Below are positions 13,054-42,305 of a DNA stretch of 64,000 bases, in pieces (position 1 is the stretch's first letter; each line of letters starts with the position of its first letter). The stretch comes from Cellulomonas hominis (GTDB taxonomy: Bacteria; Actinomycetota; Actinomycetes; Actinomycetales; Cellulomonadaceae), in assembly GCF_014201095.1 (NCBI RefSeq), contig NZ_JACHDN010000001.1, forward strand, positions 62,001 to 126,000, in the 5' to 3' direction. The notes beneath the pieces were generated by a model that saw only the letters and a program-made list of their open reading frames with translations, was not told where the DNA came from and made no database searches. Position numbers and translations under genes: made by a program.

Positions 13054-13123
13054 CCCACGGGACCGCACGCGCCCGTTCGCGCCCTGCCCGACCCCGCTGC
13101 TCCGCCGAGGGAGGTCGCCCTGG

Positions 13124-13174
13124 CCGGGACAGGTCGTTCTGCGGCCCTGTCTCGGGGCTACCGACCTGTCTCGG
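13124..13174. repeat. Imperfect palindrome between convergent genes
   Basis: CCGGGACAGGTCG at 13124-13136 pairs with CGACCTGTCTCGG at 13162-13174 with one G-T pair. The loop contains a further CCCTGTCTCGGGG copy. It sits between fabF and the convergent flavoprotein operon. It could be a bidirectional terminator or a REP-like element similar in style to 7032-7101. Confidence 0.5.
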
Positions 13175-13211
13175 CGCACGTGTGGACGGCGCAGGGTGGA
13201 CGGCGCGGGGG

Positions 13212-14720
13212 TCAGTAGCCCGTGAACGCGTCCGTGCGGACCCGCCGCGCCCCGGCCCGCCGGAGCAGCGCCCGCGTGCCGTCGACCATCGCCGGCGGCC
13301 CCGACACGTAGGCGTCCCGCTGCGCGAGGTCCGGCACGGCCTCCTCCAGCACCTCCGCCGACAGCCGCCGCTCCCCCAGGTGCCGCCACCCGGCGGGCAG
13401 CCCGTCCTGGTCCGGCGTCGGGGACAGCACGAGCACCCGGGCCCCCGCCGCCCGGATCGGCTCGGCGTACGCCAGGTCGGCGTGCTCGGTCACGGAGTAC
13501 AGCAGGACGACGTCCCGCTGCTCCCCCGCGGCCGCCAGCGCGGCCAGGTGCGCCGCGAACGGCGTCACGCCGATGCCGCCGGCGACGAGCAGCAGCGGCC
13601 GCGCGGGGTCGGCGGGCAGCACGAAGTCCCCGCCGAGCCCGGTCGCCCGCAGCCGCGCGCCCACGGGCAGCCCGGCGAGCGCGCGCTTGTAGGTCGACGC
13701 CCGCTCCGGGACGGTGAGGGCGACCGTCAGCTCGTCGGCGGCGGGCGCGGAGGACACGCTGAACACCCGCCGGGTGCCGCGGGCGTCGGGACGCGGGTGC
13801 GGGACGGTCAGCTCGAGGTACTGCCCCGGCAGGTAGCGCACGGGCCGGTCGGCCCGGAACGCGAGCTCGACCGTCCGGGGCGTCAGCCGGGTCTGCCGGG
13901 TCAGGGTGAGCCGGACCGCGCCGCGCTGGCCCCACGCGAACGCGAGCAGGTTGCCGACGACCAGCGCGGCCTCGGGCGTCGAGTACAGCGGGCCGACGTG
14001 GTACGACACGGCCATGAGGACGCCGACGACGCCGGCCTCGACGAGCTGCTGCCACCGGCGGGGCGGCAGGGTCAGCGGCTCGGTGAGCATGACGCCGCCG
14101 AGGAACAGGACCGGGTACGACACCAGGGCGGTGGTCACGGCGTCCAGCCCGGCGGCGCCCTCCACGACGAGCCGGACCGACACGGCCACCACGGCGACGA
14201 CGACGAACGTGCCCACCAGCGCGTACCGCCGGGTCCGCACGACGACCACGGCGGCCAGCAGCAGCACGGGCACGAGCAGCCACCGGTCGGCGACCCACCA
14301 CGTCGTGGCGTCCCAGCCGGTGAGCCCGACGAGCAGCGCGCCGGCCGCGGCCGGGTTCAGCACGTGCCGCCCGCGCCAGGCGAGCAGGTACTTCGAGGCG
14401 TTCGCGAGCACCGCCGCCAGCGCGAGCGTCCCGAGGTAGCGGGCCTCCAGCGTCGGCCAGAACAGGAACAGCAGGATCAGGCCGGTGATGACCGCCGACT
14501 CGGTGTGCGCGCGGGTGCGGAACGCCGCGGCGAGCAGCCAGGCGCTCGCCACCGACGCCGCCACGGCCACGAGCGCGCTGACCACGAGCGGCCCCGGCTC
14601 GACGAACAGCACGCCCGCGAGCGACAGCAGCAGCGCCACCGCGGCGAGGGCCCCCAGACCGAGGCTGAGCAGCCGGTACATCGTCACCCGGCCCAGCCGC
14701 TCCTCCACCCAGCCGCTCAC
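13212..14720 (-). CDS. RnfD/NqrB-like membrane protein fused to a ferredoxin-NAD(P)+ reductase domain
   Basis: A 502-residue fusion. The N-terminal ~270 residues hold about ten membrane helices of the NqrB/RnfD/YidK-like type, with NPAAAGALLVGLTGW and GGVMLTEPLTLPPRR. The C-terminal ~230 residues are a cytosolic FAD/NAD(P)H reductase. They show the FAD motif RYLPGQYLELTVP, then RVFSVSSAP, the NAD-binding LLVAGGIGVTPFAAH and the end motif YVSGPPAMVDG. It should carry electrons from NAD(P)H across the membrane. The GTG start overlaps the apbE stop (GTGA). With ApbE and the FMN-binding lipoprotein it forms one transmembrane flavin electron-transfer chain. Confidence 0.85.
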   Translation of the reverse strand: MSGWVEERLGRVTMYRLLSLGLGALAAVALLLSLAGVLFVEPGPLVVSALVAVAASVASAWLLAAAFRTRAHTESAVITGLILLFLFWPTLEARYLGTLALAAVLANASKYLLAWRGRHVLNPAAAGALLVGLTGWDATTWWVADRWLLVPVLLLAAVVVVRTRRYALVGTFVVVAVVAVSVRLVVEGAAGLDAVTTALVSYPVLFLGGVMLTEPLTLPPRRWQQLVEAGVVGVLMAVSYHVGPLYSTPEAALVVGNLLAFAWGQRGAVRLTLTRQTRLTPRTVELAFRADRPVRYLPGQYLELTVPHPRPDARGTRRVFSVSSAPAADELTVALTVPERASTYKRALAGLPVGARLRATGLGGDFVLPADPARPLLLVAGGIGVTPFAAHLAALAAAGEQRDVVLLYSVTEHADLAYAEPIRAAGARVLVLSPTPDQDGLPAGWRHLGERRLSAEVLEEAVPDLAQRDAYVSGPPAMVDGTRALLRRAGARRVRTDAFTGY

Positions 14721-15601
14721 GCGAACACCTCCCCGTCCAGGTCCAGCGACCACCGGATGCCGCCGTCCGCGCGCAGCACGACGTACCGGACCCCGAACCG
14801 CGACGCGACCAGGTCGGGCTCGGCGAAGAACAGCGCGGTCGCCGCCAGGTCCGCGGCGAGCGCGGTGGGGCCGGTGGCCCACGTCGCGACGACGTCCGCG
14901 GTGGGCAGCCCGGTCCGGGCGTCGACCACGTGGTGCAGCCCCGGCCCCCAGGCCCGGCGGTTGGTGGCCGACCCGCAGAGCGCGCCGCCCGCCAGCCGGA
15001 CCACCCCGACCGCCCGTGCGGGGTCGCGGGGGTCCTCGAGCGCGACGGTCAGCGGCTCGGGCACGGCGGCGCGCAGGTCGCCCCCGGCGTCCACGACGTG
15101 CTCCGCGAGGCCGTGCTCGGCGAGCACCCCGGCGACGAGGTCGACGAGGTAGCCCTTGCCGCCCGCGCCGACGTCGAGCAGCGCGGGCTCGTCGAGCGTG
15201 AGCGTGCCGGCGGCGCGGTGCGCGGCGGTCCGCCAGGGCGGCGCGGGCCGAGTGGCGAGCGCGCCCCCGGCGTCGAGACGCGGGCGCAGCGAGTACCCCG
15301 CGTCGTAGCCCAGGTCCTCCAGCGCGCGCCCGACCAGCGGGTTCACCGCACCGCCGGTGCACCGGTCCGCGACGTCGTACGCGTCGAGCAGCGGGCCGGC
15401 GTCGGCGGGGAGCCGGTAGGTGCCCGCCCCGCCGCGCGCGACCTCGGCCACCCAGGAGTCGGCGCGGAACCGGGACCAGTCCTGATCGAACCGCGCGATC
15501 CGGTCGTGCACGGCCGCGAGCACGTCGGCCGGCAGGGGCTCCGGGGTGTCGAGCTGCCACCCGGTCCCGATGGCCTGGAAGACGACGCTAGGCCGCGGCA
15601 T
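14717..15601 (-). CDS. apbE: FAD:protein FMN transferase
   Basis: A 294-residue ApbE-family enzyme that attaches FMN covalently to Thr/Ser of partner proteins outside the membrane. Visible family features are IGTGWQLDT, FDQDWSRFRADSWV, GAVNPLVGRALEDLGYD, the metal/FAD region LLDVGAGGKGYLVDLVAGVL, DAGGDLRA and HHVVDARTGLPT. No signal peptide is obvious, although ApbE partners usually act extracytoplasmically. The start overlaps the FMN-binding lipoprotein gene by 14 bp, and its stop overlaps the reductase start. The adjacent substrate at 15588 carries the expected flavinylation motif. Confidence 0.9.
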   Translation of the reverse strand: MPRPSVVFQAIGTGWQLDTPEPLPADVLAAVHDRIARFDQDWSRFRADSWVAEVARGGAGTYRLPADAGPLLDAYDVADRCTGGAVNPLVGRALEDLGYDAGYSLRPRLDAGGALATRPAPPWRTAAHRAAGTLTLDEPALLDVGAGGKGYLVDLVAGVLAEHGLAEHVVDAGGDLRAAVPEPLTVALEDPRDPARAVGVVRLAGGALCGSATNRRAWGPGLHHVVDARTGLPTADVVATWATGPTALAADLAATALFFAEPDLVASRFGVRYVVLRADGGIRWSLDLDGEVFA

Positions 15602-16067
15602 CGGCGCGGATCTGGTCGAGCGCCGCGTTGAACCCGTCGCCGGTCAGCGAGGACCCGGAGACCTTGTCGACCGACAGCCCGGCGAGCTCCTGCCCGACCA
15701 CCTCGTCGGCGATGCCGGACGCGAACTCGTCCTGGAACCGGGCGGCGTTGCCGCCGGTGGCCTCCGGGGTGACGGTGACGTCGGTGACGACGCCGTCGGC
15801 GATCGTCAGCTCGACGGCGATGGACTCCTGCCCGCCGGGGGTGCTGTACGAGCCCTCGGCCTCGTAGGTGCCGTCGGCGAGGTCGCCCGAGGCGGCGGCG
15901 TCGTCGGAGGCGCCGGTGCCCGCGTCGGACGAGGCGTCCGCCTGGCTGCTGCTCGGGGCGTCGTCCTCCGTGGCGGCCCCGGCGCCCTCCCCGCACGCGG
16001 CCACCGCCACGACGACGGAGAGGCCGGACAGCAGGCCGAGGGTGCGGCGTCGGAGCGAGTGCGCCAT
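15588..16067 (-). CDS. FMN-binding domain lipoprotein (flavinylation substrate)
   Basis: A 159-residue exported protein. The signal peptide ends in a lipobox VAAC with the acylated Cys25. A Ser/Asp/Ala-rich linker to about residue 65 follows, and then an FMN-binding domain beginning DLADGTYEAEGSYSTPGG. The C-terminal DKVSGSSLTGDGF matches the ApbE target pattern D-x-V-S-G-A-T-x-T with A and T replaced by S, so Ser is the likely FMN acceptor. ATG 16067 has GGAGGG 7 nt upstream. It is the first gene of the electron-transfer operon with apbE and the fused reductase. Confidence 0.87.
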   Translation of the reverse strand: MAHSLRRRTLGLLSGLSVVVAVAACGEGAGAATEDDAPSSSQADASSDAGTGASDDAAASGDLADGTYEAEGSYSTPGGQESIAVELTIADGVVTDVTVTPEATGGNAARFQDEFASGIADEVVGQELAGLSVDKVSGSSLTGDGFNAALDQIRADAAA

Positions 16068-18238: not shown

Positions 18239-20404
18239 ATGCTCTCGTTCACCTCCACCGGCACCGAGCTGCGCCGGTTCCGCCGCGGGCTGCTGCCCCG
18301 CCTCGCCGTCGGCGCGATGGTCCTCGTGCCGCTGCTGTACGGCGCGCTCTACCTGTGGGCCTTCTGGGACCCGACCGGCAACATGGACCGCCTGCCCGTC
18401 GCCCTGGTCAACGCCGACACCGGCGCCACGCTGGACGACGAGCCGCTGGCCGCGGGCACCGAGGTCACCGACCAGCTCGTCGACTCCGGGGACCTCGACT
18501 GGCGCCTCACCGACGCGCAGGACGCCGCGGACGGCGTCGCGGACGGCACCTACTACTTCGCCGTCACGATCCCCGCCGACTTCTCCGCCGACATCGCCTC
18601 GGCCGGCGGCGACGACCCGACCGCGGCGCAGCTCCAGGTCACGTACAACGACGCGAACTCCTTCCTCGCCTCCACCCTCGGCCGCACCGCCATGGCGCAG
18701 GTGCAGTCCGCCGTGTCCGCCACCATCGGCGAGCAGGCCGTCGACACGATGCTGGTCGGCCTCGGCTCCGCCCGCGACGGCTTCGCCACGGCCGCCGACG
18801 GCGCGCTCACCCTCCGCGCCGCGAGCGGCGACCTGTCCACCGGCGCGCACCAGGTCGCCGACGGGGCGGTCAGCGCCGCGGACGGCGCCGCCCGGCTGGC
18901 CGACGGCTCGGGCACGCTCGCCACGGGCACGGACACCCTGGCGTCGGGCGCGGGGCAGCTCGCCTCGGGCGCCGCGACGCTGTCCTCCGGCGCGGGCCAG
19001 GCGGCCCAGGGCGCCGCGACGCTCGCCGCCGGCGCGGGGCAGCTCGCCTCGGGCGCGTCGACCGCCGCGCAGTCGTCCACGACGCTGGCCGGGGGCGCGC
19101 ACGCGGTCCGGCAGGGCGTCGACACGCTCGCCGCGTCGACCACCGCGATGTCCGCGGCGGCGCAGACGCTCACGGGGTCGCTCGGCACCCTCGGCGCCAC
19201 GCTCACCCAGGTCGCGCAGCAGAACGCCGCGGCAGGCGACCTCGCCACCGCCGGGCAGATCCAGGCCGCGCTCACCACCCTGCAGACGACCGTCGACGGC
19301 CTCGGGCTCCCCGACGCGGACGAGCAGGCCGCGGCCGCCCAGCAGCTCACGAAGCTCGTCCAGGGCGCCCACGACCTCGACGCCGGCGCCGGCGCCCTGA
19401 GCACCGGCCTCGGCACCCTCGCCACGAAGTCGGGCGAGCTCGCGGCCGGCGCGTCGCAGCTGTCCGCCGGCACCTCCCAGGTCGCGTCCGGCGCCCAGCA
19501 GCTCGCCGGCGCGACGAGCACCCTGTCCGCCGGCGCCACACGCCTCCAGACCGGTTCGCACGACCTCGCGGACGGCGCGGCCGAGCTCGCGACCGGCACC
19601 GGCACCCTCGCGGACGGCGCGGGGCAGGTGGCCGACGGCACCGACCAGGTGGGCGACGGCGCGCAGCAGATCGCGGACGGCCTGTCCGACGGCGCGGCCC
19701 AGATCCCCGACGACTCCGACGCCACCCGCACCGCCCGGGCGGACGTGATCTCCTCCCCGGTGTCGCTGTCCTCCGACGACCTCGCGCAGGCGGAGGGCTT
19801 CGGCGAGGGCTTCGCGCCGTTCTTCATCCCGCTGGCGCTGTTCGTCGGCGCGCTCATCACCTGGCTGCTGCTCCGGCCGCTGCCGTCGCGCGCCCTGGCC
19901 ACCCCGGCGGCCGGCTGGCGGACCGCGTTCGCGGGGTACCTGCCGGCGCTGGCCATCGGCGTCGCCCAGGTCGCGGTGATGCTCGCGGTGATCCACTGGG
20001 GCGTCGGCCTGGAGATGTCCACGGCGCTCGGCACCATCGGGTTCACGCTGCTGGTCGCGGCGACGTTCCTGGCCCTGCAGCAGATGCTCGTCGCGGTGCT
20101 CGGCCCGGCCGCCGGCAAGGTCGCGATCCTCGCGCTGCTCATGCTGCAGCTCGCGTCGTCCGGCGGCACCTACCCCGTGGAGACCACCCCGGCCTTCTTC
20201 CGGGCGATCCACCCGCTGCTCCCCATGAGCTACGCCGTCACCGGCCTGCGCCAGACGATCACCGGTGGCGTCGACGGGCGGCTGTGGCTGTCCGTGGCGG
20301 TGCTCGGCGTGGTCCTCCTGGGCTCGCTCGCCCTGACCGCGTGGCGCGCCGGGCGGCTCCGCACGTGGAGCCTGTCCCGCCTGCACCCCGCCCTGACGAT
20401 CTGA
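18239..20404 (+). CDS. YhgE/Pip domain membrane protein (ABC-2-like exporter subunit)
   Basis: A 721-residue protein. An N-terminal helix (about 20-42, LAVGAMVLVPLLYGALYLWAF) precedes the Pip/YhgE segment GNMDRLPVALVNADTGA. A long extracellular part (about 200-490) is built from heptad-like repeats of the type LASGAGQLASGA. Five to six C-terminal helices follow (from about 530). This matches the Pip/YhgE-EsaA-like family, linked to phage infection and type VII or lipid export. The N-terminal Pip part, repeats and ABC-2 type C-terminus are in one chain. It is co-transcribed with the ABC-like gene and TetR. Confidence 0.85.
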   Translation: MLSFTSTGTELRRFRRGLLPRLAVGAMVLVPLLYGALYLWAFWDPTGNMDRLPVALVNADTGATLDDEPLAAGTEVTDQLVDSGDLDWRLTDAQDAADGVADGTYYFAVTIPADFSADIASAGGDDPTAAQLQVTYNDANSFLASTLGRTAMAQVQSAVSATIGEQAVDTMLVGLGSARDGFATAADGALTLRAASGDLSTGAHQVADGAVSAADGAARLADGSGTLATGTDTLASGAGQLASGAATLSSGAGQAAQGAATLAAGAGQLASGASTAAQSSTTLAGGAHAVRQGVDTLAASTTAMSAAAQTLTGSLGTLGATLTQVAQQNAAAGDLATAGQIQAALTTLQTTVDGLGLPDADEQAAAAQQLTKLVQGAHDLDAGAGALSTGLGTLATKSGELAAGASQLSAGTSQVASGAQQLAGATSTLSAGATRLQTGSHDLADGAAELATGTGTLADGAGQVADGTDQVGDGAQQIADGLSDGAAQIPDDSDATRTARADVISSPVSLSSDDLAQAEGFGEGFAPFFIPLALFVGALITWLLLRPLPSRALATPAAGWRTAFAGYLPALAIGVAQVAVMLAVIHWGVGLEMSTALGTIGFTLLVAATFLALQQMLVAVLGPAAGKVAILALLMLQLASSGGTYPVETTPAFFRAIHPLLPMSYAVTGLRQTITGGVDGRLWLSVAVLGVVLLGSLALTAWRAGRLRTWSLSRLHPALTI

Positions 20405-25037: not shown

Positions 25038-27590
25038 TCAGCCGTCGAGCCCCTCGGCCTCGTCGAGCGCCCTCCGGACGCGAGCCCGGTGCATCACGAC
25101 CACGGCCCCGGCCGCGACGAGCGCGACGGCCACGCCGCCCGCGACCCGCAGGTCCGCGCCCGTGACGGCCAGCGGCGGCGGGGCCGCCGCGACGGTGAGG
25201 GTCTCGGACTCCTCGCCGCAGGTGCCCTCGGAGAGCACCTCCCCATCGGGTCCCGTCGTCCGCTCGACGAACCCGTACGTCCCCGGGGCAGTGGTGACGT
25301 ACCGCGCGGTCCGGTACTCCCCCGCACCGCCGGTCAGCGGGACGGTCGTCGTCCAGACGGGCTCCGTGCACACGAGCTCCGCGCCGGGCGCCGCGTGGAA
25401 GAGGTCCACCCGGGCGACGCTGCCGGCGGGGAACGATCCCGTCGCCGTGACCGCGTCCCAGACCTCGGCCCCGGTCTCCGGTGCGTCCGACGAGGCCAGC
25501 GCCGTGGTCCGGACCGCGGGCGCGTCGACGACCAGGGTCGTCTCCGCGACGGCCCCGCAGTCGCCCCGGTCCAGGACGGTGCCGTCGGAACGGGTCAGCG
25601 TCTCCACCCAGTACACGGCCCCGGCCCGTCCGGGCGCGGGCGCCGTCCCGGAGTCGTAGTAGCCGGGCCCCGCGACCTGGACCGGGTCGGAGGTCCACAG
25701 GAGCGTGGACCCGTCGCACACGGGCTCGGCCGCGGGGTCCTGCGGCCCGTACGCGGCGAACACCAGGTGGTCGCCCGGTTCGGTCGTCCCCGTGACGAGC
25801 GCGACGTCGTGCATGGTCCCGCCGGCGGGCGCGGTGTCCTGCGCCCGCGTCACGGCCTCGGGCGGCACGACGACCTCGGGCGGGCCGGGCACGAAGAAGA
25901 CCTCGCGCAGGTCGTCGAACGGGCTGACGAACGGCTCGACCCGGTCGTCGCCGGCGAACGCGTAGACGAACACGAAGTAGTCACCGCCCGGGTGGGTGGC
26001 GGCGGACGGCGCGACGACCGGGTGCGCCTCGTCGTAGCCCACCTGGTAGACCCCGTCGACCGCCGCCACGGTGTCGGCCCAGTGCACGGGCGTGCCCTCC
26101 GGCACCTCGGAGCCGGTCGGCAGCGCGGGCAGCGGGCCGTACACGGTGACGGTCGCCTCGCCGAGGTCCGGCTGCCACGGGCCCAGCCCGCCGAACGACC
26201 CGTGGCCGTCCGGGTAGCCGGTGACGGTGATGCGGTCGAAGGCCCGCCCGCCGGGGACCACGTTGAACTCCCGGGTCTCCGACTCGTGCGCGAGGGAGTA
26301 CCGGTCGACGGCCGTCTCGGCGGCCTCGAAGAACGGCGCGGTGAAGTCCTCCCGGAGGTACGGCGCCGACGCCCCGGCGTCCGCCACCCGGATCGAGACG
26401 ACGGCCGTGTAGAAGCCGTCCCCCGTCGAGCGCACGGTGCCGGGCGTGGTCACCGGGCCGGGGCCGTCGGCGACGACGCGCTCGACCCCCGCCACCGGCG
26501 CGTCCGCGGGCGGGGCGTCCGCCTGGGGCTGCGGCTCGGGGAACGGGCCGTACCAGGTCACGTGCGCCGGGACGTCCACGGGGTCCCCGTCGATCGCGAT
26601 CCACTCGTCGTCCGGCGCGGCCGCGAACTCCACCACGTCCACCAGCGGCCCGCCGTCCGCCACCCGCACGTCCTGGACGGTGGTCGTCGCGCGCGGTCGG
26701 AAGTCGCCCACGACGGGGAACTCCGGGCCGGGCACCTCGACGACGCGCAGGTCGTGCTCGGGCCGGTTGCCGTAGGTGAGCTGGTCCTGGCGGTTCCCGG
26801 GCAGGTCGACGACGGTGACGGTGGTGCGCCCCGCGTCGTCGAACTCGACCTCGTACCCGACGGCGCCGGTGCCCGTGGCGGTCCACGCCAGCGTGACCGG
26901 CTGGTCCCCCGACACCCCCGCGTAGCGCCCGGTGCCGGTGGCGTCGAACACCGCCGGCCCGGTCAGCCGCACCTCGAAGGGAGCGCCCGCGACCGGCAGG
27001 CCGGCCGCGCCGACCAGGACGATCCCCTCGATCGTGCCGGTGCGGGTGCCCTGCCCGGTGACGACGCCGGCGCGAGCCGTGTACGGCCCGGCGGTCCGCG
27101 CGCCCTCGGCCAGGAACTCGTCCGCGCGGTCCTTGACCGCCTGCGGGGTCGCCGCCGCGATGAGCAGCTTGGCGACCTCCACGACGCCGCCGGCCATCGA
27201 CCCCGGTCGCTCCTGACGCTGGTGCACGGCGTAGCCGATCGCCGCCTGGGTCAGGTCGTCCGCGTCGCCCCGGTGGCGCGCCAGCGCCGCGGCGAGCGGT
27301 GCGTCGTCCACGTACTCCATGCCGAGCGGGACGTCCGCCGGACCGGACGCCGTGACGCGCGCCTGGAGGCAGTAGCCGTGCTCCTCCGCACCGGCCGGCC
27401 CCTCGAGCGGGCCCAGGTGCACGGGCCCGTAGCCCTGCGGCGTGATGGTGATGCCGTGCGCGGGCACGCGCGCCTGCGCGGTCGTCGGGCTCGGGGCGAG
27501 GACCAGGGCGGACGTCGCCCCGGCCGCGAGCGCCCCGGCGAGGACGACTGACGTCGCCCTCCGGGCATGCCAAGATGGCCGTGCTTGCAT
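25038..27590 (-). CDS. Large secreted surface protein with LPXTG-like sorting signal
   Basis: 850 residues. The signal peptide has a basic start, a hydrophobic core and an AQA cleavage region near residue 40. An N-terminal domain (about 45-200) contains MEYVDDAPLAAALARHRGDADDLTQAAIGYAVHQRQ. A long tail of repeated beta-rich modules of about 100-130 residues shares phrases such as YWVETLTRSDGTVLDRGDC and YGFVERTTGPDGEVLSEGTC. The C-terminus is LAVTGADLR, a hydrophobic helix and basic residues. This is a sortase-type anchor with Ala in place of Pro. Ligand unknown. ATG 27590 has AGGAG 7 nt upstream. An IS element begins only 33 bp before this start. Confidence 0.78.
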   Translation of the reverse strand: MQARPSWHARRATSVVLAGALAAGATSALVLAPSPTTAQARVPAHGITITPQGYGPVHLGPLEGPAGAEEHGYCLQARVTASGPADVPLGMEYVDDAPLAAALARHRGDADDLTQAAIGYAVHQRQERPGSMAGGVVEVAKLLIAAATPQAVKDRADEFLAEGARTAGPYTARAGVVTGQGTRTGTIEGIVLVGAAGLPVAGAPFEVRLTGPAVFDATGTGRYAGVSGDQPVTLAWTATGTGAVGYEVEFDDAGRTTVTVVDLPGNRQDQLTYGNRPEHDLRVVEVPGPEFPVVGDFRPRATTTVQDVRVADGGPLVDVVEFAAAPDDEWIAIDGDPVDVPAHVTWYGPFPEPQPQADAPPADAPVAGVERVVADGPGPVTTPGTVRSTGDGFYTAVVSIRVADAGASAPYLREDFTAPFFEAAETAVDRYSLAHESETREFNVVPGGRAFDRITVTGYPDGHGSFGGLGPWQPDLGEATVTVYGPLPALPTGSEVPEGTPVHWADTVAAVDGVYQVGYDEAHPVVAPSAATHPGGDYFVFVYAFAGDDRVEPFVSPFDDLREVFFVPGPPEVVVPPEAVTRAQDTAPAGGTMHDVALVTGTTEPGDHLVFAAYGPQDPAAEPVCDGSTLLWTSDPVQVAGPGYYDSGTAPAPGRAGAVYWVETLTRSDGTVLDRGDCGAVAETTLVVDAPAVRTTALASSDAPETGAEVWDAVTATGSFPAGSVARVDLFHAAPGAELVCTEPVWTTTVPLTGGAGEYRTARYVTTAPGTYGFVERTTGPDGEVLSEGTCGEESETLTVAAAPPPLAVTGADLRVAGGVAVALVAAGAVVVMHRARVRRALDEAEGLDG

Positions 27591-27623: not shown

Positions 27624-29077
27624 GAAGGGTCCGGTGTGCCAGGGTCAAGTCCCCGGGCGTGGTGTGTGACGGCTTCCGCGTGATCTTCGGGTTCAGGCGC
27701 TGAGCGCCGGGAGTTGGGGCGTGGTCACCTCCGGCGGGTCTGGCAGGGCAGTGAGCCGGGATCGGCCAAGAACGTCCAGGGCGAGGTAGCGGCGTCCTTC
27801 GGCCCATTCGTCGTGCTGCTCCGCGAGCACGGCTCCGACCAGGCGGATGATCGAGGTGCGGTCGGGGAAGATCCCCACGACGTCGGTGCGGCGGCGGATC
27901 TCGCGGTTGAGACGCTCGTTCGGGTTGTTGGACCAGATCTGGCGCCAGACCTCCTTCGGGAAGGACGTGAACGCCAGGACGTCGGCCCGGGCCGCTTCGA
28001 GGTGGTCCGCGACGGCCGGGAGCTTGTCGGCGACGGCGTCCAGCAGCCGGTCGAACTGGGCGTGGACCGCGTCGGTGTCGGGCTGGTCGTAGACGCTGTG
28101 CAGCAGCGTCTTGACCCACGGCCAGGAGGACTTCGGGCAGGTCGACATCAGGTTCGCCGCGTAGTGGGTGCGGCACCTCTGCCAGGTCGCGCCGGGCAGG
28201 GTCGCGCCGATCGCGGCGACCAGCCCGGAGTGCGCGTCAGAGGTCACCAGCTTGACCCCGGTCAGGCCGCGGGCGGTCAGGTCTCGGAAGAACGTCAACC
28301 ACCCGGCCCCGTCCTCCGCGGTGGACACGTCGATGCCCAGGATCTCTCGGTGCCCGTCGGCGTTGACCCCGGTCGCGACCATGACCGCGATGTTGACCAC
28401 CCGTCCGCCCTCACGGACCTTCACGCTCAGGGCATCGGCCGCCACGAACGTGTAGGGGCCGGCGTCCAGCGGACGGGTGCGGAACGCGGCGACCTGCTCG
28501 TCCAGGTCCGCGGCCATCCGCGAGACCTGGGACTTCGACAGCCTGGTGATCCCGAGCGACTCGACGAGCTTGTCCATCCGCCGGGTCGAGACGCCCAGGA
28601 GGTAGCAGGTTGCAACGACGCTAGTCAGCGCCGCCTCCGCGCGCCGGCGGCGCTCTAGCAACCAGTCGGGGAAGTAGGTGCCGGCGCGCAGCTTGGGGAT
28701 CGCCACGTCCATCGTGCCGACCCGGGTGTCGAAGTCGCGGTGCCGGTAGCCGTTGCGCACGTTGGTCCGCTCCGCAGAGCGGGAGCCGTAGTCAGCGCCG
28801 CAGATCGCGTCGGCTTCGGCGCCCATCAGGGTGTCGATGAACACGCCCAGCAGCTCGCGCAGCAGGTCGGGGCTGGCCGTGCTCAGGTGCTCGTGCAGGA
28901 AGCGGGCAGGGTCCAGACTGGGTCCAGCGGTCATCGCGGGTCCTTCTCTCGAGTCGACTTGGTAGGTCTCTCGAAGAATCACGCGGTGACCGCCTACACG
29001 TCTACGACGATGCCCGATCAAGGCCGGGCTCGCACACCACTCTGCGGGACGCCACTTGTGCCAGCACCGGGCCCTTC
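27624..29077. mobile_element. IS256-family insertion sequence
   Basis: It contains one transposase gene. Probable terminal inverted repeats are GAAGGGTCCGGTG at 27624-27636 and the complement of GAAGGGCCCGGTG at 29065-29077 (12 of 13 matching). The exact ends are inferred from this pair. I see no matching 8-9 bp target duplication, so the ends may be slightly different or one flank rearranged. It separates the surface-protein gene from its upstream region. Confidence 0.72.
27693..28934 (-). CDS. IS256-family (mutator-type) transposase
   Basis: 413 residues. The catalytic DDE residues are visible: Asp in TFVAADALSVKVREGG, Asp in KLVTSDAHSGL and Glu in NNPNERLNREIRRRTDVVGIFP. The family C/H motif follows WQRCRTHYAANLM. 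The start MTAGPSLDPARFLHEHL matches IS256 relatives; the frame is open further upstream to 29219, beyond the IS end, without similarity. It appears full length and thus possibly active. Confidence 0.95.
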   Translation of the reverse strand: MTAGPSLDPARFLHEHLSTASPDLLRELLGVFIDTLMGAEADAICGADYGSRSAERTNVRNGYRHRDFDTRVGTMDVAIPKLRAGTYFPDWLLERRRRAEAALTSVVATCYLLGVSTRRMDKLVESLGITRLSKSQVSRMAADLDEQVAAFRTRPLDAGPYTFVAADALSVKVREGGRVVNIAVMVATGVNADGHREILGIDVSTAEDGAGWLTFFRDLTARGLTGVKLVTSDAHSGLVAAIGATLPGATWQRCRTHYAANLMSTCPKSSWPWVKTLLHSVYDQPDTDAVHAQFDRLLDAVADKLPAVADHLEAARADVLAFTSFPKEVWRQIWSNNPNERLNREIRRRTDVVGIFPDRTSIIRLVGAVLAEQHDEWAEGRRYLALDVLGRSRLTALPDPPEVTTPQLPALSA

Positions 29078-29412: not shown

Positions 29413-30072
29413 ATGACCGATCAGCCCACCGACGACCGCTCGCGCCGCCGCAAGGCCCTCGTGGCCTGGGGCGCCCTGGCCGGCGTCGCCGCGCTCCTCA
29501 CGACCGCCGCCTTCACCGACGTCGCCCGCCTCAACCTCGGCAGCGGCGGCATCGGCGGCTCCGACAGCACCTACAACATCCAGGTCGGGGGCACCGACGG
29601 CGACGGCACGTTCGTCGCCGGCACCTGGCAGGAGGCCGACGACGCGGCCGGCGTGCCGATCGCGATCTCCGGCGCCGAGTCCGTGTTCCCGGGCTCCACC
29701 CCGATCAGCGTCGAGATCCCGGTCCGGAACGACTCGACCGCCTTCGCCTCGTCCCTCTCCCTGACGCTCTCGCAGCTGGCGGACGACGCCGGCGCCGGCC
29801 GGGTGACCGACGCGAACTACCTGTCGAGCCTGCGGTTCGACGTCGCGATGCCCGGGACCTCGCGCGACGCGACCCCCGTGGCCGAGTCGGGCCTGACCTT
29901 CGCCGAGGCGTCCGCGGTCGTCCTGAACGAGCTCGCCGCCGAGGAGGAGAGCACGGTCACCCTGACCGTCGCCCTGCTGTCGCAGAGCGAGTCCGGCGCC
30001 GCGTTCGGCGACAACACGCTGTCCGGCAAGGGCGCGTTCCTGCAGGCGACCTTCGACGGCACCTCCGTCTGA
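29413..30072 (+). CDS. SipW-type exported protein A (TasA/camelysin-like)
   Basis: 219 residues. The basic start RSRRRKALVAWGALAGVAALL leads into TTAAFTD, the actinobacterial form of the SipW-dependent signal peptide (T-x-x-A-F-x-D after the hydrophobic core). The mature part is acidic and beta-rich with no Cys, as in TasA/camelysin fibre proteins: FPGSTPISVEIPVRNDS and STVTLTVALLS. It is the first gene of the operon and is separated from the next by a strong hairpin, which fits a more abundant product. Role as a surface fibre subunit is an inference. Confidence 0.75.
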   Translation: MTDQPTDDRSRRRKALVAWGALAGVAALLTTAAFTDVARLNLGSGGIGGSDSTYNIQVGGTDGDGTFVAGTWQEADDAAGVPIAISGAESVFPGSTPISVEIPVRNDSTAFASSLSLTLSQLADDAGAGRVTDANYLSSLRFDVAMPGTSRDATPVAESGLTFAEASAVVLNELAAEEESTVTLTVALLSQSESGAAFGDNTLSGKGAFLQATFDGTSV

Positions 30073-30087
30073 GCGTCCCGCCGCGCA

Positions 30088-30129
30088 CCGGCCCTGCCGG
30101 GCGGACCCGCCTCCGCCCGGCAGGGCCGG
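30088..30129 (+). terminator. Strong hairpin after the first SipW-operon gene
   Basis: A perfect 17-bp stem CCGGCCCTGCCGGGCGG / CCGCCCGGCAGGGCCGG with an 8-nt loop starts 15 bp after the first gene. The five genes after the next are tightly overlapped in the same direction, so it probably sets a higher level of the first gene relative to the rest. Confidence 0.75.
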
Positions 30130-30170
30130 CCACACCCCCGACCCCGCCCCACCAGCACGAGAGGACCCCG

Positions 30171-30728
30171 ATGCGCACCACGACCCGCCGCGCGGCGGTG
30201 CTCGCCCTGCCGCTGTGCCTGCTCGTCGGGCTGACCGCCGCACGGGTGGTCGGCACGGACGAGGTGCGTGTCGACTTCGAGGGCGTGACCTTCGCCCTGG
30301 AGTCCGCGGGCAGCGGCTCCCCGGGCTGGCGCCCCGCCGCGGCCGACTGGCACGCGAGCGACGCGGCCTGGACGCTCGACCTCGCGAGCGACGAGCTCGC
30401 CCCCGGCGGCTCGGTGGACGTGCGGGTGGCGGTGCGCAACACCTCCGGCACCGACGCCACCGTGGTCCTCGCGCTGGCGGACCCGGACCCCACCAGCCCC
30501 GGCACCGACCTGTTCGGCGCCCTCGAAGCCGCAGTCCGCGAGGACGGCGCCCTGCTCGCGTCCGGCCCGGCCGGCGCGGTCCGCGTGACCCTGCCCGGCG
30601 CGGTCGGCCCGCACGGCTCCGACGTCCGCGTCCTTGACCTGTCGCTCACCCTGCCCGCCACGGGCGACGGACGCTGGGTCGGCGCCCGCACCGGCGTCCA
30701 GGTGCTGCTCGAGGGGACGAGCCGGTGA
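30171..30728 (+). CDS. Exported hypothetical protein B of the SipW operon
   Basis: 185 residues with an N-terminal hydrophobic segment (AAVLALPLCLLVGLTAARVVG) but no A-F-T-D motif. The mature part is a single beta-sandwich-like domain: WTLDLASDELAPGGSVDVRVAVRNTSG and VLDLSLTLPATGDGRW. Such domains resemble those of the TasA-like neighbours. GAGAGGA precedes ATG 30171. Its stop overlaps the start of the next gene (GTGA). Function unknown; presumably a minor component or chaperone of the surface assembly. Confidence 0.65.
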   Translation: MRTTTRRAAVLALPLCLLVGLTAARVVGTDEVRVDFEGVTFALESAGSGSPGWRPAAADWHASDAAWTLDLASDELAPGGSVDVRVAVRNTSGTDATVVLALADPDPTSPGTDLFGALEAAVREDGALLASGPAGAVRVTLPGAVGPHGSDVRVLDLSLTLPATGDGRWVGARTGVQVLLEGTSR

Positions 30729-31324
30729 CCGCGCGCCACCGCGCCCCGGGCACCCTCCGCGTGACCCGCCGCCCGGTCCTCGCGCTCGGGGGCGTCGCCG
30801 GCGTCCTCCTGCTCGCGGCCGGCACCGCCGTGACGCACGCCGCGTTCACCGACGCGGCCGAGGCCGACCTCGGCCCGGTCGGCGGCGCGTTCGACATCGC
30901 GCTCGTCGACGGGTCGGGCGCGGTCGTCCAGGGGAACCCCGACCCCCTGGTGATCGACACGGTCGTCCCCGGCCCCGGCGGCGCCCCGGCCATCGAGGTG
31001 GACGTCGTGACGACCACCCGCGCGACCGGCACGATCACCCTGACCGTGCGGAACGCCCGCACGGCGCCCCTGCCGACGGACCCCGGCTTCTCCGGCCCGG
31101 GCGCCGACCCGTTCGACGTCGCGCGGTTCACGGTCTCGGTGGACGGCGAGGTCGTCGCGACGGACCGCGCCGCGGACCTCGACCCCGTGGTGATCGACGA
31201 CTGGGAGACCGGCGTCGCCCGGCGCGTCCAGGTCGCGGTGACCCTCGACCCGGCGCTCGGCAACCCCTACTACTTCAACCGCGCGATGGTCGTCGGCCTG
31301 CGCCTGGACGGGAGCACCGCATGA
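30725..31324 (+). CDS. SipW-type exported protein C
   Basis: 199 residues. The signal region LALGGVAGVLLLAAGTAVTHAAFTDAAEADLG has the A-F-T-D hallmark of SipW-cognate signal peptides. The mature part is beta-rich (FDIALVDGSGAVVQ, IEVDVVTTTRATGTITLTVRN) and similar in plan to protein F of the same operon (FDVVLVDAAGTARQ). The GTG start overlaps the stop of gene B, and the stop overlaps the next ATG (ATGA). Confidence 0.72.
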   Translation: MTARHRAPGTLRVTRRPVLALGGVAGVLLLAAGTAVTHAAFTDAAEADLGPVGGAFDIALVDGSGAVVQGNPDPLVIDTVVPGPGGAPAIEVDVVTTTRATGTITLTVRNARTAPLPTDPGFSGPGADPFDVARFTVSVDGEVVATDRAADLDPVVIDDWETGVARRVQVAVTLDPALGNPYYFNRAMVVGLRLDGSTA

Positions 31325-31911
31325 CCGCCGCCGCCCTGGCCCTCGCCGGCCTGCTCGCCCTCACCCCCGCATCCGTCGCGCCCGCCGACACCGCCCCGGC
31401 CGTCGACCTCGTCGCCGGCAGCACCAGCACCGCGCGGCTCGACGTGCCCTACCCCGGCCACGCAACCGCCTTCGACGTCACCGCGCGCGCCGCGCAGGGC
31501 GCCGGCCCCAGCGACCTCGCCCTCGTGCTCGACGGCGGCGACGGCCCGCTCGCGGATGGCCCCGACGCGCTGCGGCTGACGCTGGCCGACGCCGACGGCG
31601 CCGTGCTCGCCGAGGGCACCGCCGCCGAGCTGCGCGGCCGCGTCGTCCCGCTGGGGCGGCTCGGCGCGACGCCGGTGACGGTGCACGGCACCGCGGCCCT
31701 GCCCGCCTCCGCCGGCGACGCCGCGCAGGGCGCCGGCCTCACGCTGACCTTCCGCCTGGTCGCGGAGCAGGACGCCCCCACCACGTCCGGCGTCCTCGCG
31801 ACCACCGGCGCCCGCGCCGTCGCGGCCGGCCTCGCCGCCCTCGTCCTGCTGCTGACCGGCCTGCTGCTGGTCGCCGCCCGCCGCCGGTCCCGCACCGAGG
31901 AGGACTCGTGA
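31321..31911 (+). CDS. LATTG-anchored surface protein D of the SipW operon
   Basis: 196 residues. A conventional signal peptide (ALALAGLLALTPASVAPADT) precedes an Ala-rich beta domain. The C-terminus has LATTGARAVAAGLAALVLLLTGLLLVAARRRSR, that is an LPXTG-like pentapeptide, a membrane helix and basic residues. It is the only protein of the operon with a sorting signal, so it may fix the assembly to the cell wall. The start and stop overlap the neighbouring genes (ATGA, GTGA). Confidence 0.72.
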   Translation: MTAAALALAGLLALTPASVAPADTAPAVDLVAGSTSTARLDVPYPGHATAFDVTARAAQGAGPSDLALVLDGGDGPLADGPDALRLTLADADGAVLAEGTAAELRGRVVPLGRLGATPVTVHGTAALPASAGDAAQGAGLTLTFRLVAEQDAPTTSGVLATTGARAVAAGLAALVLLLTGLLLVAARRRSRTEEDS

Positions 31912-33359
31912 CCCGCACCCGCAGCGCCCTGGCCGGCCTCGCGGCCGCCGCGCTCGCCGTCGTCGCCGTCGTCGCGTCCACCGCGCCGACGACCGCCGCC
32001 TACACCGACCGCGCCGAGGCCGTCACCGACGTCTTCGCGTCCCCGACCACCCGGTTCGTCCCGCAGCAGACCTACCTGGCGGGCACCGCGGCCGCCGTCC
32101 AGGACGACGGCACGATCGCCGTCTGGGGCTACCGCGGCAACGGCCTGTCCGGCACGGGCACGACCACCGTCGACTCGGCCGCGACGATCAGCCTGGTGAC
32201 GCTGCCGTCCGACGGGCACCCCGACGGCGCGCGCCGCGCGGTGCGGCTGGCCGGCGTCAGCCTCGACAACTACTACCCGGCGGACGTCAGCTACTCGGGC
32301 CTCGCCGCGCTGTCCGACGACGGCCGCGTCTACACCTGGGGCGGCAACCAGGTCCACAACATCATGGGCCGCACCAACGCGGTCCCGTTCAACCGCCCCG
32401 GCCAGGTGAGCATCCCGGGCACCGTGGTGGACCTCGTGTCGAGCGCCTCGGTGTTCATGGCCCTCACCGACACCGGCGACCTCTACACCTGGGGCTACGC
32501 GCAGTCGCGGGGCGTCACCGGCCAGGGCACCGCGACGGCCTCGGCGGCGACGCCGACCCGGATCCTCACCGGCGTGCACTCGATCGGCGCCGGCGTGTGG
32601 AACGGCTGGGCGATCCGCGGCAACACCGTCGCCGGCGACGCCACGACCGGCGTGCTGTGGTGGGGCTGGGCCAACGGCGCCGGCGCCTACGCGGGCGACC
32701 CGTCCGGGGACAACGTGACCACCTCCCGCTCGACCCCGACCCGGTCGCAGGCCCTGTCGGCGCTCACCACCACCGGCTGCGACGCCGTCGGCGTGGTCGC
32801 GGGCTCCCCGGAGGACACCTGCCGGCTCCAGTCGCTCACCGGGCACTACTACGGCAGCCAGGCGGTGCTGGACGACGGCACCCTGCTCACCTGGGGCAAC
32901 TACGTCGAGTGGGGCACCGGCCGCACCGACGGCGGGTCCGCCGCCAACAACACCCCGACCGCGATCACGCTCGCGGCGGGGGTGACGGCCCGGCAGGTCG
33001 CCACGACGGAGGACTACGTGCTCGTGCTCGGCAGCGACGGCTACGCCTACGTGTGGGGGCGCTACTCCTACTCGTACGGCCCGCACCCGAGCACCGGGGC
33101 GACGTCGAACGCCAACATCCGCACGCCCACCCGGATGACCGCGCTCGGCCAGGTCGAGCTGCTCGCCGGCACGGGCTACTCGGGCATGGCGCTGCGTGCC
33201 GACGGCACGCTCGTGCTCTGGGGCGGCACCACGCAGGGCGGCAGCCACAACACGCACCGGGTGGTCCGGAACGGTTTCGCGACCACGACGACGCCGACGA
33301 CGCCCTCGCAGGGTCTCACCGCGCTCGTCATGCCCGGCACCGCGGCAGCGTCCGCATGA
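31908..33359 (+). CDS. Secreted RCC1-type beta-propeller protein
   Basis: 483 residues. The signal region ends TAPTTAAYTDRAEAV, a SipW-like variant (A-Y-T-D). At least six RCC1-like blades follow, marked by VYTWGGN, LYTWGYAQS, VLWWGWANG, LLTWGNYVEWG, AYVWGRYSY and LVLWGGTTQGG, each with an upstream dg-G-rich turn. RCC1 folds are protein- or ligand-binding seven-bladed propellers. An exported one in a TasA-like operon is a candidate adhesin or assembly hub. The gene overlaps both neighbours. Confidence 0.8.
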   Translation: MTRTRSALAGLAAAALAVVAVVASTAPTTAAYTDRAEAVTDVFASPTTRFVPQQTYLAGTAAAVQDDGTIAVWGYRGNGLSGTGTTTVDSAATISLVTLPSDGHPDGARRAVRLAGVSLDNYYPADVSYSGLAALSDDGRVYTWGGNQVHNIMGRTNAVPFNRPGQVSIPGTVVDLVSSASVFMALTDTGDLYTWGYAQSRGVTGQGTATASAATPTRILTGVHSIGAGVWNGWAIRGNTVAGDATTGVLWWGWANGAGAYAGDPSGDNVTTSRSTPTRSQALSALTTTGCDAVGVVAGSPEDTCRLQSLTGHYYGSQAVLDDGTLLTWGNYVEWGTGRTDGGSAANNTPTAITLAAGVTARQVATTEDYVLVLGSDGYAYVWGRYSYSYGPHPSTGATSNANIRTPTRMTALGQVELLAGTGYSGMALRADGTLVLWGGTTQGGSHNTHRVVRNGFATTTTPTTPSQGLTALVMPGTAAASA

Positions 33360-34033
33360 GCCGCCACCTCGCCCCCGCGCCCGCCGCGACGGCCCCGCGG
33401 TTCCCCGTCCGGCGCGCCGGCCTGGCCGCGCTCGTCGCCGCCGTCGCGCTCGTCGCCGGGATGCTCGCCGGCTCGGCCGTCACGTCGGCCGCCTTCACCG
33501 ACGCCGCGCGCCTCGGCCTCGGTGCGGGCGGCGTCGGCTCGGATGACCCGTTCGACGTCGTCCTCGTCGACGCCGCGGGCACCGCGCGCCAGGCCGCCCC
33601 GGGGACGCCCCTCGCGGTGGACCTGCCCGACCGGGACCTGCTCGTCCCCGGCCGCACCGTGGAGACCACCCTGCGCATCGCGAACAACCACGCCTCGATC
33701 GCCGCCGCGCTCAGCGCCACCGTCGCCGCCGCGCCCGTCGCGGGCACGCCGGACATCACGCCCCACCTCCGGGTGACCGTCCTCGGCCCCGACGGCGGCG
33801 CGCTGCTCGACGGCGCCACCCCCGGCACGCCGGCCGACCTGGGCGTCCTGACGGCCCGCGGCGGCGCGGCCGTGGCGGACGGCGCGGCGTGGTCCGAGGG
33901 CGCGGCCGGGTCCTGGACCACCGTGACCGTCCGCGTGCACCTGCTCGACGTCCCCGCCACCGAGGCGCTGAACGGCGGCCTCGCCCGGCTGACCGTCCGC
34001 CTCGACGCCACTTCGACCGAGGAGACCGCGTGA
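33356..34033 (+). CDS. SipW-type exported protein F
   Basis: 225 residues with the signal AALVAAVALVAGMLAGSAVTSAAFTDAARLGLG, again carrying A-F-T-D after the hydrophobic core. The mature domain contains DDPFDVVLVDAAGT, LLVPGRTVETTLRIANNHAS and WTTVTVRVHLLDVPATEALN, a TasA/camelysin-like beta sandwich without Cys. ATG 33356 overlaps the stop of the RCC1 gene, and the stop overlaps the signal peptidase GTG. Confidence 0.73.
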   Translation: MSRHLAPAPAATAPRFPVRRAGLAALVAAVALVAGMLAGSAVTSAAFTDAARLGLGAGGVGSDDPFDVVLVDAAGTARQAAPGTPLAVDLPDRDLLVPGRTVETTLRIANNHASIAAALSATVAAAPVAGTPDITPHLRVTVLGPDGGALLDGATPGTPADLGVLTARGGAAVADGAAWSEGAAGSWTTVTVRVHLLDVPATEALNGGLARLTVRLDATSTEETA

Positions 34034-34641
34034 CCGCCGTGGCCACCGAGCGCACCCCCGCCGGCGCCCCGACCCGACGCGCCCGCCGCGAGCAGCAGCA
34101 GCACGCTGCGGCCCGGCCCCGCGCCGGCACCCGGGCCGCCCGGCGCGCGCAGCGGCTGCTGCTCGACCTCGCGGCCGTCGTCGGCGTGCTGAGCCTGCTC
34201 GCCGTGGCCGCGTGCCTGGCGCTGGGCGTCCGGCCCGCGGTCGTGGTGTCGGGGTCGATGGCCCCGGGCATCCCGGTCGGCGCGGTGACCCTCGCGCGCA
34301 CCGTGCCGGCGGAGTCCGTCGCGGTCGGCGACGTGGTCACCGTCCCCCGCACGGACGGCCGCGGCCTGGTGACCCACCGCGTGATCGAGACCGCGCCGGG
34401 CACGGGCGGCGCGACCACGCTGCGCCTGCAGGGCGACGCCAACACCGAGCCCGACGCGCTGCCGTACACGGTGACGGAGGTCGGTCAGGTGCTCGGGTCG
34501 GTCCCGCACGTCGGGCGCGCGATCGTGGCGTTGCAGGAGAACGTCGTCGCCGTGGTCGCGGGGCTGCTCGTGCTCACCGCCGCGGTCACCTTCCCGGCGC
34601 GCGCTGCGCGGCGGTCACCGGGGCGTGCTCGGACCCGCTGA
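34030..34641 (+). CDS. sipW: Signal peptidase I, SipW/ER type
   Basis: 203 residues. After a basic N-terminus and one membrane helix (about 50-70) comes VVVSGSMAPGIPVGAV with nucleophile Ser76. The general-base position reads LVTHRVIE (His116), so it is the Ser-His ER/SipW type, not the Ser-Lys type. A second helix closes the C-terminus (about 175-195). It should cleave the A-F-T-D signal peptides encoded in the same operon. GTG 34030 overlaps the preceding stop. The frame is open upstream to 33889 but that overlaps gene F. Confidence 0.87.
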   Translation: MTAVATERTPAGAPTRRARREQQQHAAARPRAGTRAARRAQRLLLDLAAVVGVLSLLAVAACLALGVRPAVVVSGSMAPGIPVGAVTLARTVPAESVAVGDVVTVPRTDGRGLVTHRVIETAPGTGGATTLRLQGDANTEPDALPYTVTEVGQVLGSVPHVGRAIVALQENVVAVVAGLLVLTAAVTFPARAARRSPGRARTR

Positions 34642-41795: not shown

Positions 41796-42305
41796 GTGCC
41801 GATGTTCTCCCGCCGCCACGCCCTGCCCGACGACGTCCGCCGGTCGCTGGACCTCCCGCCCGGCGACAAGGTGCTCGCCTGCGCGCAGGCCTCCGGCGGC
41901 CGCTGGCTCGCCGCGACCCGGCGGGCGCTCTACGTCGTGGACGCCACCCAGGTCACCCGGCACGCGTGGACCGACGTCGACCGGGCGTCGTTCGTCCCGG
42001 ACCCCGCGGCGATCACCGTGCACTGGGTCACCGGCACCGCCGAGGAGCTGCCCCTGACCCCGCCGCTGCCCGTGGCCTTCGCGCAGACGTTCCGGGAGCG
42101 GGTGCAGTCGTCGGTCGTGCACGTCGAGACCGTCACACCCCCCGGCGCGGGCCCGGTCCGCGTCGTGCTGCGCCGCGGCGCCGACGGCGACCTGTTCACG
42201 CAGTCCATCGGCTCGGGGCGCGTCGACCTGGCGGACCCGGCCGTCGTCGCGCTGATCGAGGAGGCCGAGGCCCGGGTGCGCGCGGCCGCGGGCCTGCGCG
42301 CCTGA
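41796..42305 (+). CDS. Hypothetical protein (actinobacterial)
   Basis: 169 residues, mixed alpha/beta, no signal peptide. It contains LDLPPGDKVLACAQASGGRWLAATRRALYVVD, which looks like a PH-like strand set, and ends VVALIEEAEARVRAAAG. GTG 41796 follows the -10-like TACGGT (41783-41788) by 7 nt, so the gene may be leaderless; ATG 41802 is an alternative. I do not recognise a function. Confidence 0.6.
   Translation: MPMFSRRHALPDDVRRSLDLPPGDKVLACAQASGGRWLAATRRALYVVDATQVTRHAWTDVDRASFVPDPAAITVHWVTGTAEELPLTPPLPVAFAQTFRERVQSSVVHVETVTPPGAGPVRVVLRRGADGDLFTQSIGSGRVDLADPAVVALIEEAEARVRAAAGLRA

Follow-up and report, generated by a model that had tools for sequence, protein, structure and literature searches.

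Organization of the locus

The 64,000-nucleotide stretch of Cellulomonas hominis analysed here (the window; NCBI RefSeq assembly GCF_014201095.1, contig NZ_JACHDN010000001.1, positions 62,001 to 126,000 of the forward strand) carries, at positions 29413-34641, seven tandem open reading frames, designated g1 to g7 and all on the plus strand, which encode a SipW-like signal peptidase together with TasA-like proteins, a secreted RCC1 beta-propeller and a protein with an LATTG sorting signal, and which probably specify a wall-anchored surface fibre. The layout proposed in an earlier note on this DNA is confirmed by the coordinates of the open reading frames: g1 and g2 are separated by a 98-bp gap and the remaining five borders are 4-bp overlaps. 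The fraction of G or C at third codon positions (third-position GC) ranges from 0.96 to 0.99 across the seven frames. The features of the locus are as follows:

29413-30072, plus strand: g1, TasA-like fibre subunit with an A-F-T-D signal, likely the major subunit
30088-30129, plus strand: stem-loop with an 18-bp stem, 3' of g1, a probable transcript stabiliser or attenuator
30171-30728, plus strand: g2, fourth TasA-like paralogue, signal motif lost in the genus
30725-31324, plus strand: g3, TasA-like subunit with an A-F-T-D signal
31321-31911, plus strand: g4, beta-sandwich protein with an LATTG sorting signal, putative wall anchor
31908-33359, plus strand: g5, secreted RCC1 beta-propeller with an A-Y-T-D signal, putative distal or tip binding module
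33356-34033, plus strand: g6, TasA-like subunit with an A-F-T-D signal
34030-34641, plus strand: g7, endoplasmic reticulum (ER)/archaeal-type (SipW-like) signal peptidase, Ser76/His116

No conserved promoter motif was found 5' of g1; the sequences preceding g1 in seven loci can hardly be aligned.

Signal peptidase and export signals

The g7 product scores 64.2 bits against TIGR02228, the model for ER/archaeal-type signal peptidases (cut-off 51.85), and Ser76 and His116, the latter within THR, are invariant in a peptidase alignment of 16 loci. A Ser-His dyad replaces Ser-Lys, and the earlier reading of an ER/SipW-type enzyme with histidine in the place of lysine is upheld by both score and residues. 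The match to the Bacillus SipW equivalog NF046067 (43.7 bits) falls below its cut-off of 190.

Proteins exported in a SipW-dependent manner carry A-[FYW]-x-D right after a hydrophobic stretch, and their genes are linked to that of the peptidase. Directly after such a stretch, g1, g3 and g6 have A-F-T-D and the RCC1 propeller g5 has A-Y-T-D, exactly the set that the note had listed, so that these four combine motif and linked peptidase gene; g2 does not in the genus. Within residues 16-75, A-[FYW]-x-D occurs in 6 of the 56 genes called in the window: these four, a 721-amino-acid (aa) protein with AFWD after a hydrophobic stretch (18239-20404), and a gene with AWTD and no hydrophobic stretch before it (41796-42305). 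The TIGR04088 model of SipW-dependent exported proteins describes the same kind of signal, but g3 remains just under its cut-off (18.4 bits against 19), and no match at E≤0.1 was obtained for g1, g2, g5 or g6. Motif and linkage together suggest that the substrates would be cleaved by g7 instead of the general signal peptidase. Elsewhere in the window genome, TIGR02228 has further matches above cut-off at G000:C1:3648578-3648931 (locus L051), adjoining a 209-aa protein with a hydrophobic start, and at G000:C1:1078198-1078551, and one below cut-off at 2493766.

TasA-like subunits and the stem-loop behind g1

Profile models built from the genus cross-match among g1, g2, g3 and g6, which form one paralogous family. 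In the structure model of g1, mean predicted local distance difference test (pLDDT) values per block lie between 73 and 94 from residue 61 onward, the top match among 350,542 PDB chains is the cryo-electron microscopy TasA fibre 8aur, and the top fold matches include fibres and pili; as modelled, g1 has the TasA fold of a fibre subunit. At the sequence level the family is harder to recognize: Pfam matched none of 25 family members at E≤0.01, TIGR04088 matched one of the 25 at the same threshold, and a PDB sequence search with g1 and g4 profiles returned nothing useful. The earlier description of g2 as a beta-sandwich protein has to be amended, since g2 is best regarded as a fourth member of the A-F-T-D family, and g4 is also modelled as a beta-sandwich. 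The motif of g2 is gone in the genus, but at that place its relatives in Sanguibacter and Arthrobacter carry TFTD, SFTD or TLAD. In these two genera, the g1 model matches g2 genes and the g2 model g1 genes, and the gene in third place fits the g1 or g6 model at least as well as that of g3, so that it is called g3 by its place; the cross-matches are read at the level of the whole protein.

The stem-loop at 30088-30129 was equalled by none of 200 shuffled sequences and has a folding energy z of -5.0. In 13 of 14 loci, window included, a stem-loop lies no more than 65 nt downstream of the g1 stop, with differing sequences at a kept place, L109 being the only locus where none follows g1. At most one of 200 shuffles was as good in 11 of the 14; the structures of L037 and L038 are weaker by this measure (6 and 8 of 200). 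Folding energy z is below -2 in 11 of 14 loci when L033 replaces L109, and is not unusual in the other three (L037, L038 and L127). In Clostridium perfringens, a predicted terminator behind bsaA accompanies a short sipW-bsaA mRNA alongside a long read-through mRNA, according to the portions of the account available (PMC7395162). This precedent and the kept stem-loop suggest that g1 is the abundant, major subunit, with its share raised by the structure.

The RCC1 propeller and its linkage to the peptidase

The g5 product matches the RCC1 repeat models PF13540 (44.1 bits, cut-off 22) and PF00415 (24.3 bits, cut-off 21.7) above their cut-offs, and PF25390 at 89.6 bits, below its cut-off of 150. 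A profile of 18 proteins from the g5 place, some of them canonical RCC1 proteins, finds HERC2, UVR8 and RCC1 in PDB with E-values down to 3e-54, and Ala30 and Asp34 are invariant in all 18.

Across the genus, PF25390 marks 63 RCC1 regions in 34 of 81 genomes, and TIGR02228 yields 128 peptidase matches in 33 of those 34, with positions entered by hand and split matches merged, and with weak members of the 128 that may be ordinary signal peptidases. Nineteen of the 63 regions have such a peptidase within 4 kb, in every case one above the TIGR02228 cut-off; at about four peptidases per 4 Mb, our own arithmetic gives a chance expectation of less than one, and, as many of them are orthologues, the 19 do not count as independent. 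Cellulomonas biazotea (G004) was counted as unlinked because its RCC1 and peptidase genes lie on different contigs. On a peptidase tree of 64 loci, 11 individually fetched loci among them, a hand-set RCC1 label requires 3 changes, of which well-supported branches force 2, whereas shuffled labels need 17.8. Several loci of the contig search described below coincide with individually fetched ones (L104/L035, L105/L034, L106/L037, L107/L039, L108/L038, L110/L040, L118/L056, L120/L050, L122/L072, L124/L061 and L139/L046), and in the tree L107 (C. biazotea) was labelled RCC1 from its other contig. The few changes indicate that the RCC1 link follows descent and has been gained or lost more than once; a scenario of separate gains was dropped, as the changes may be either.

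Proteins at the g5 place whose identity to g5 is low or undetectable still match RCC1 in Pfam (L041, L054, L036, L046, L048 and L050), and the idea that this place holds varied non-RCC1 adhesins was abandoned for this reason. Exceptions occur in other cassette types: the proteins of L042 and L047 match nothing in Pfam, and that of L066 contains DUF285. Among 32 other RCC1-bearing genomes of the order sample, outside the genus, at least one RCC1-peptidase pair within 4 kb was seen by eye (G144, L156). Here, in a different family of the order, the segment 7370-10203 of the reverse complement holds an RCC1 protein and a small companion beside a TIGR02228 peptidase; the two carry SFTGTTGN and AFSGSTGN near their starts, a different motif that is perhaps of the same kind. 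The Arthrobacter RCC1 proteins (L114 6780-8069, L115 6885-8174 and L127 6783-8075) show, by eye, a twin-arginine stretch before A-Y-K-D, hinting at twin-arginine translocation (Tat) of the folded propeller. The window genome also has a second RCC1 gene, G000:C1:2220184-2221287 (L161), which is not linked to a peptidase; gene calling places an LAVTG protein about 1.4 kb further on.

The putative wall anchor and the sortases

The LATTG protein of the earlier note is g4, in which the motif is followed by a hydrophobic helix and an Arg-rich tail. The protein lacks A-[FY]-x-D behind its signal and scores 16.8 of 65 bits against NF058583, another LAXTG family. Class E sortases read LAxTG, according to the part of the source consulted (PMC5148588). 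A PF04203 search found two sortases in the window genome, both away from the window, one of class E at 255.7 bits against a cut-off of 160 and another that is closest to class F and stays below the cut-off of that model (121.5 of 166 bits); it found no pilus-type class C sortase at the locus or in the genome. With its LAxTG motif, hydrophobic helix and basic tail, and a class E sortase in the genome, g4 has the attributes of a class E substrate. The g4-place protein also carries LAxTG in L035, L037, L038, L040, L041, L054, L111, L114, L115 and L127, as LASTG or LANTG in the last four; LAxTG is not present in the L117 protein at this place, nor in the four-gene cassettes L046 and L049 (LGATG) and L048 (LPTTG). 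In a Leucobacter metagenome-assembled genome (MAG), a single frame (L109 5939-7309) joins the LAxTG protein to an A-Y-T-D subunit, and may represent a naturally occurring anchor-subunit fusion.

Conservation of the cassette

Orthologues of g5 with at least 50% identity occur in 9 of the 81 genus genomes, the window's own included. Among 20 fetched loci, tblastn finds all seven genes in order in L035, L037, L038 and L040, of which L037 belongs to a genome named Cellulosimicrobium, and orthologues at 50-83% identity keep their reading frames. L032 and L033 retain g1, g3, g5, g6 and g7, and second cassettes in the same genomes (L041 and L054) have the same seven places, with a g5 that is still RCC1 in Pfam. 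L036 combines g1, g2 and g4 with three frames bearing AFTD, AFRD and SYRD (by eye), a distant RCC1 protein and the peptidase, and in smaller cassettes (of the L046/L049/L056 and L048/L050 types) RCC1 adjoins the peptidase. A profile search of genome contigs with the peptidase alignment gave 52 loci, in which models built from the genus only place the seven in order in 9 and RCC1 near the peptidase in 17.

Outside the genus, the full seven are present in L111 (Sanguibacter inulinus) and in the Arthrobacter loci L114, L115 and L127, and partial cassettes in L109 (Leucobacter MAG), L117 (Rothia santali) and L112 (a Bifidobacteriaceae MAG). The four full loci are much diverged, with identities to the window proteins of 22% for g5 (L115 left out), 28-37% for g4, 39-43% for g1 and 38-46% for g7. 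All six g5 proteins scanned (L109, L111, L112, L114, L117 and L127) match RCC1 in Pfam, those of L109 and L112 below the cut-offs. Borders from g2 on are overlaps of 1-8 bp in the four full loci, where each start was taken as the codon nearest the end of the preceding gene, a choice that favours short overlaps. The synteny that the earlier note had proposed to examine is hence kept in four other genus genomes, one Sanguibacter and three Arthrobacter. Cassettes occur in Cellulomonadaceae, Sanguibacteraceae, Micrococcaceae and Microbacteriaceae, with a partial one in the Bifidobacteriaceae MAG; conservation reaches beyond Cellulomonadaceae, and the gene set is not a product of chance.

Neighbouring genes

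A Mutator-family (PF00872) transposase gene (window 27693-28934, minus strand) has its start 478 bp upstream of the operon, and at the corresponding place L032 and L033 have no such gene called. Beyond it, an 850-aa protein with a C-terminal LAVTG (25038-27590, minus strand) has no Pfam or NCBIfam match, and a protein alike in start, length and LAVTG adjoins the cassettes of L032 and L033. Large regulators of about 840-870 aa, with an AAA domain and a LuxR-type helix-turn-helix in Pfam, adjoin the cassettes of L109 (1326-3851) and L127 (1459-4026); frames judged similar by eye from their starts and ends stand beside L036, L040, L041, L054 and L113. These regulators may control the adjoining cassettes; none is seen beside that of the window. 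In L035, with the cassette turned to the plus strand, a C. hominis 697-aa protein and a 466-aa LPLTG protein follow it (12329-15879).

Proposed assembly and alternative explanations

The reading that we favour, and consider rather probable, is that the operon makes a TasA-type donor-strand surface fibre that is anchored to the wall by g4 and displays the RCC1 protein. In this model, g7 would release g1, g3, g6 and g5 (and g2 in relatives) at A-[FY]-x-D, and the freed N-terminal segment would then act as donor strand, inserted into the open groove of the beta-sandwich subunit that follows, as TasA does. The major subunit would be g1, with g2, g3 and g6 as minor or connecting subunits. In Bacillus subtilis, each TasA lends its N-terminal strand to the subunit that follows, and the fibre is started by TapA, which donates but cannot accept, in the portions of the two accounts available (PMC9674648, PMC10151520). 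By the same logic, g5, with a donor-type N-terminus and a closed propeller devoid of a groove, could only donate, and would form the first-made, distal end as a binding module; g4, a TasA-like sandwich with no donor-type start, could only accept, and would end the fibre, with the class E sortase linking it to the wall. The model would explain why g5 shares the signal of the subunits while g4 does not.

Two observations weigh against this reading. In L032 (G057) and L033 (G062), which are close cassettes, g2 and g4 have no match, and 44 of the 63 RCC1 regions in the genus have no nearby peptidase. The second cassettes of G057 and G062 have both g2 and g4; the partial L034 (G056), cut by the contig start inside g3, also yields no g4 match. 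The remaining genes can evidently persist in the absence of this anchor, which appears not to be essential to the cassette, and the earlier claim of a complete set with its own wall anchor is supported in part. What stands of the surface-fibre or adhesin assembly then suggested is a dedicated SipW-type export cassette of kept order, with TasA-like subunits, a secreted RCC1 protein, and an LAxTG protein accompanied by a class E sortase.

A stronger version of the fibre model, which we advance tentatively and hold to be more doubtful than probable, is that of a complete monoderm pilus of set polarity that dispenses with usher and pilus sortase, in which the donor strands would be produced by the dedicated peptidase, and in which a donor-only RCC1 propeller that both initiates and tips the fibre, a shaft and links made of four paralogues, and an acceptor-only LAxTG end fixed to the wall by the housekeeping class E sortase would follow one another. 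If true, RCC1 propellers would constitute a class of binding proteins at the tips of bacterial fibres.

The best-surviving alternative, which is nonetheless unlikely, is shared export with no shared fibre, the peptidase maturing separate secreted proteins and the RCC1 protein being free in the medium with a protein-binding or inhibitory activity. RCC1 is a general protein-binding fold, as the PDB relatives RCC1, HERC, UVR8 and RPGR illustrate, and BLIP-II, a secreted actinobacterial propeller, is a precedent for such a protein acting alone. The dispensability of g2 and g4 and the many unlinked RCC1 regions fit this explanation, as does the four-gene L048 cassette, which pairs its RCC1 gene only with one small motif protein, an LPTTG protein and the peptidase. 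It does not readily accommodate a seven-gene order kept across several families, the presence of four TasA-like paralogues, or the retention by g5 of the same A-[FY]-x-D type of start. A membrane or wall coat is less plausible still, and we regard it as quite improbable: the sandwich proteins would form a short layer or scaffold, with the RCC1 protein as sensor or scaffold rather than adhesin. The wall signal of g4 would suit such a coat, and the AAA/LuxR-type regulator next to some cassettes points to an envelope function under regulation, but the fibres and pili among the top fold matches of g1 and the stem-loop, which suggests one abundant subunit, speak for a polymer. Finally, an old, decaying or chance cluster beside an insertion sequence, functionless in this strain, is brought to mind by the nearby transposase and the lost g2 motif, but is very improbable given seven open frames of high third-position GC, intact catalytic residues and orthologues that keep their frames at 50-83% identity.

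Comparison with known systems

As far as the accessible portions of the published accounts go, several systems share parts of this arrangement. Like tapA-sipW-tasA of B. subtilis, the window cassette unites a dedicated peptidase and its substrates in one operon, with an A-F-x-D start, a g1 model nearest in fold to the TasA fibre, and in g5 a parallel to the donor-only starter TapA. Unlike it, the cassette has four TasA-like paralogues instead of one, an RCC1 propeller and an LAxTG wall protein, and a peptidase that scores below the Bacillus SipW model. The sipW-tasA/calY/capP system of Bacillus cereus likewise has several subunits matured by one SipW, and its heteropolymer fibres and wall-associated organiser resemble the assembly proposed here; its authors call it sortase-independent, in contrast to the sorting signal and matching sortase found here, and the part of their account available names no RCC1 (PMC13082335). 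The sipW-bsaABCRSD operon of C. perfringens also brings together peptidase, polymer-forming subunit and other secreted proteins, with a predicted terminator behind the polymer subunit gene; it differs in having its own two-component system and its peptidase first, its nearby sortase is not needed for the polymer, and no RCC1 is named in the portions seen (PMC7395162). The chaplins of Streptomyces, as class E sortase substrates, share the LAxTG signal and a class E sortase in the genome, whereas g4 is a beta-sandwich inside a SipW-type cassette (PMC5148588, available in part).

RCC1 and SipW occur together in none of 5.39 million open texts, and no such cassette was found in open-access texts among the matches listed. 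The parts are of known kinds; what seems to be new is their combination, together with its occurrence in several families of actinobacteria and the probable build of the fibre. Donor-strand fibres of the TasA type are understood from work on Bacillus, and a related pilus is known from archaea. The fibre proposed here would extend them to Micrococcales actinobacteria, with a propeller for a tip protein and a sortase-ready anchor, neither of which is named in the available portions of the Bacillus and Clostridium accounts; it would show how TasA-type fibres are capped and fixed to the wall, and would assign a function to the secreted RCC1 proteins of bacteria, a group named after a eukaryotic nuclear protein.

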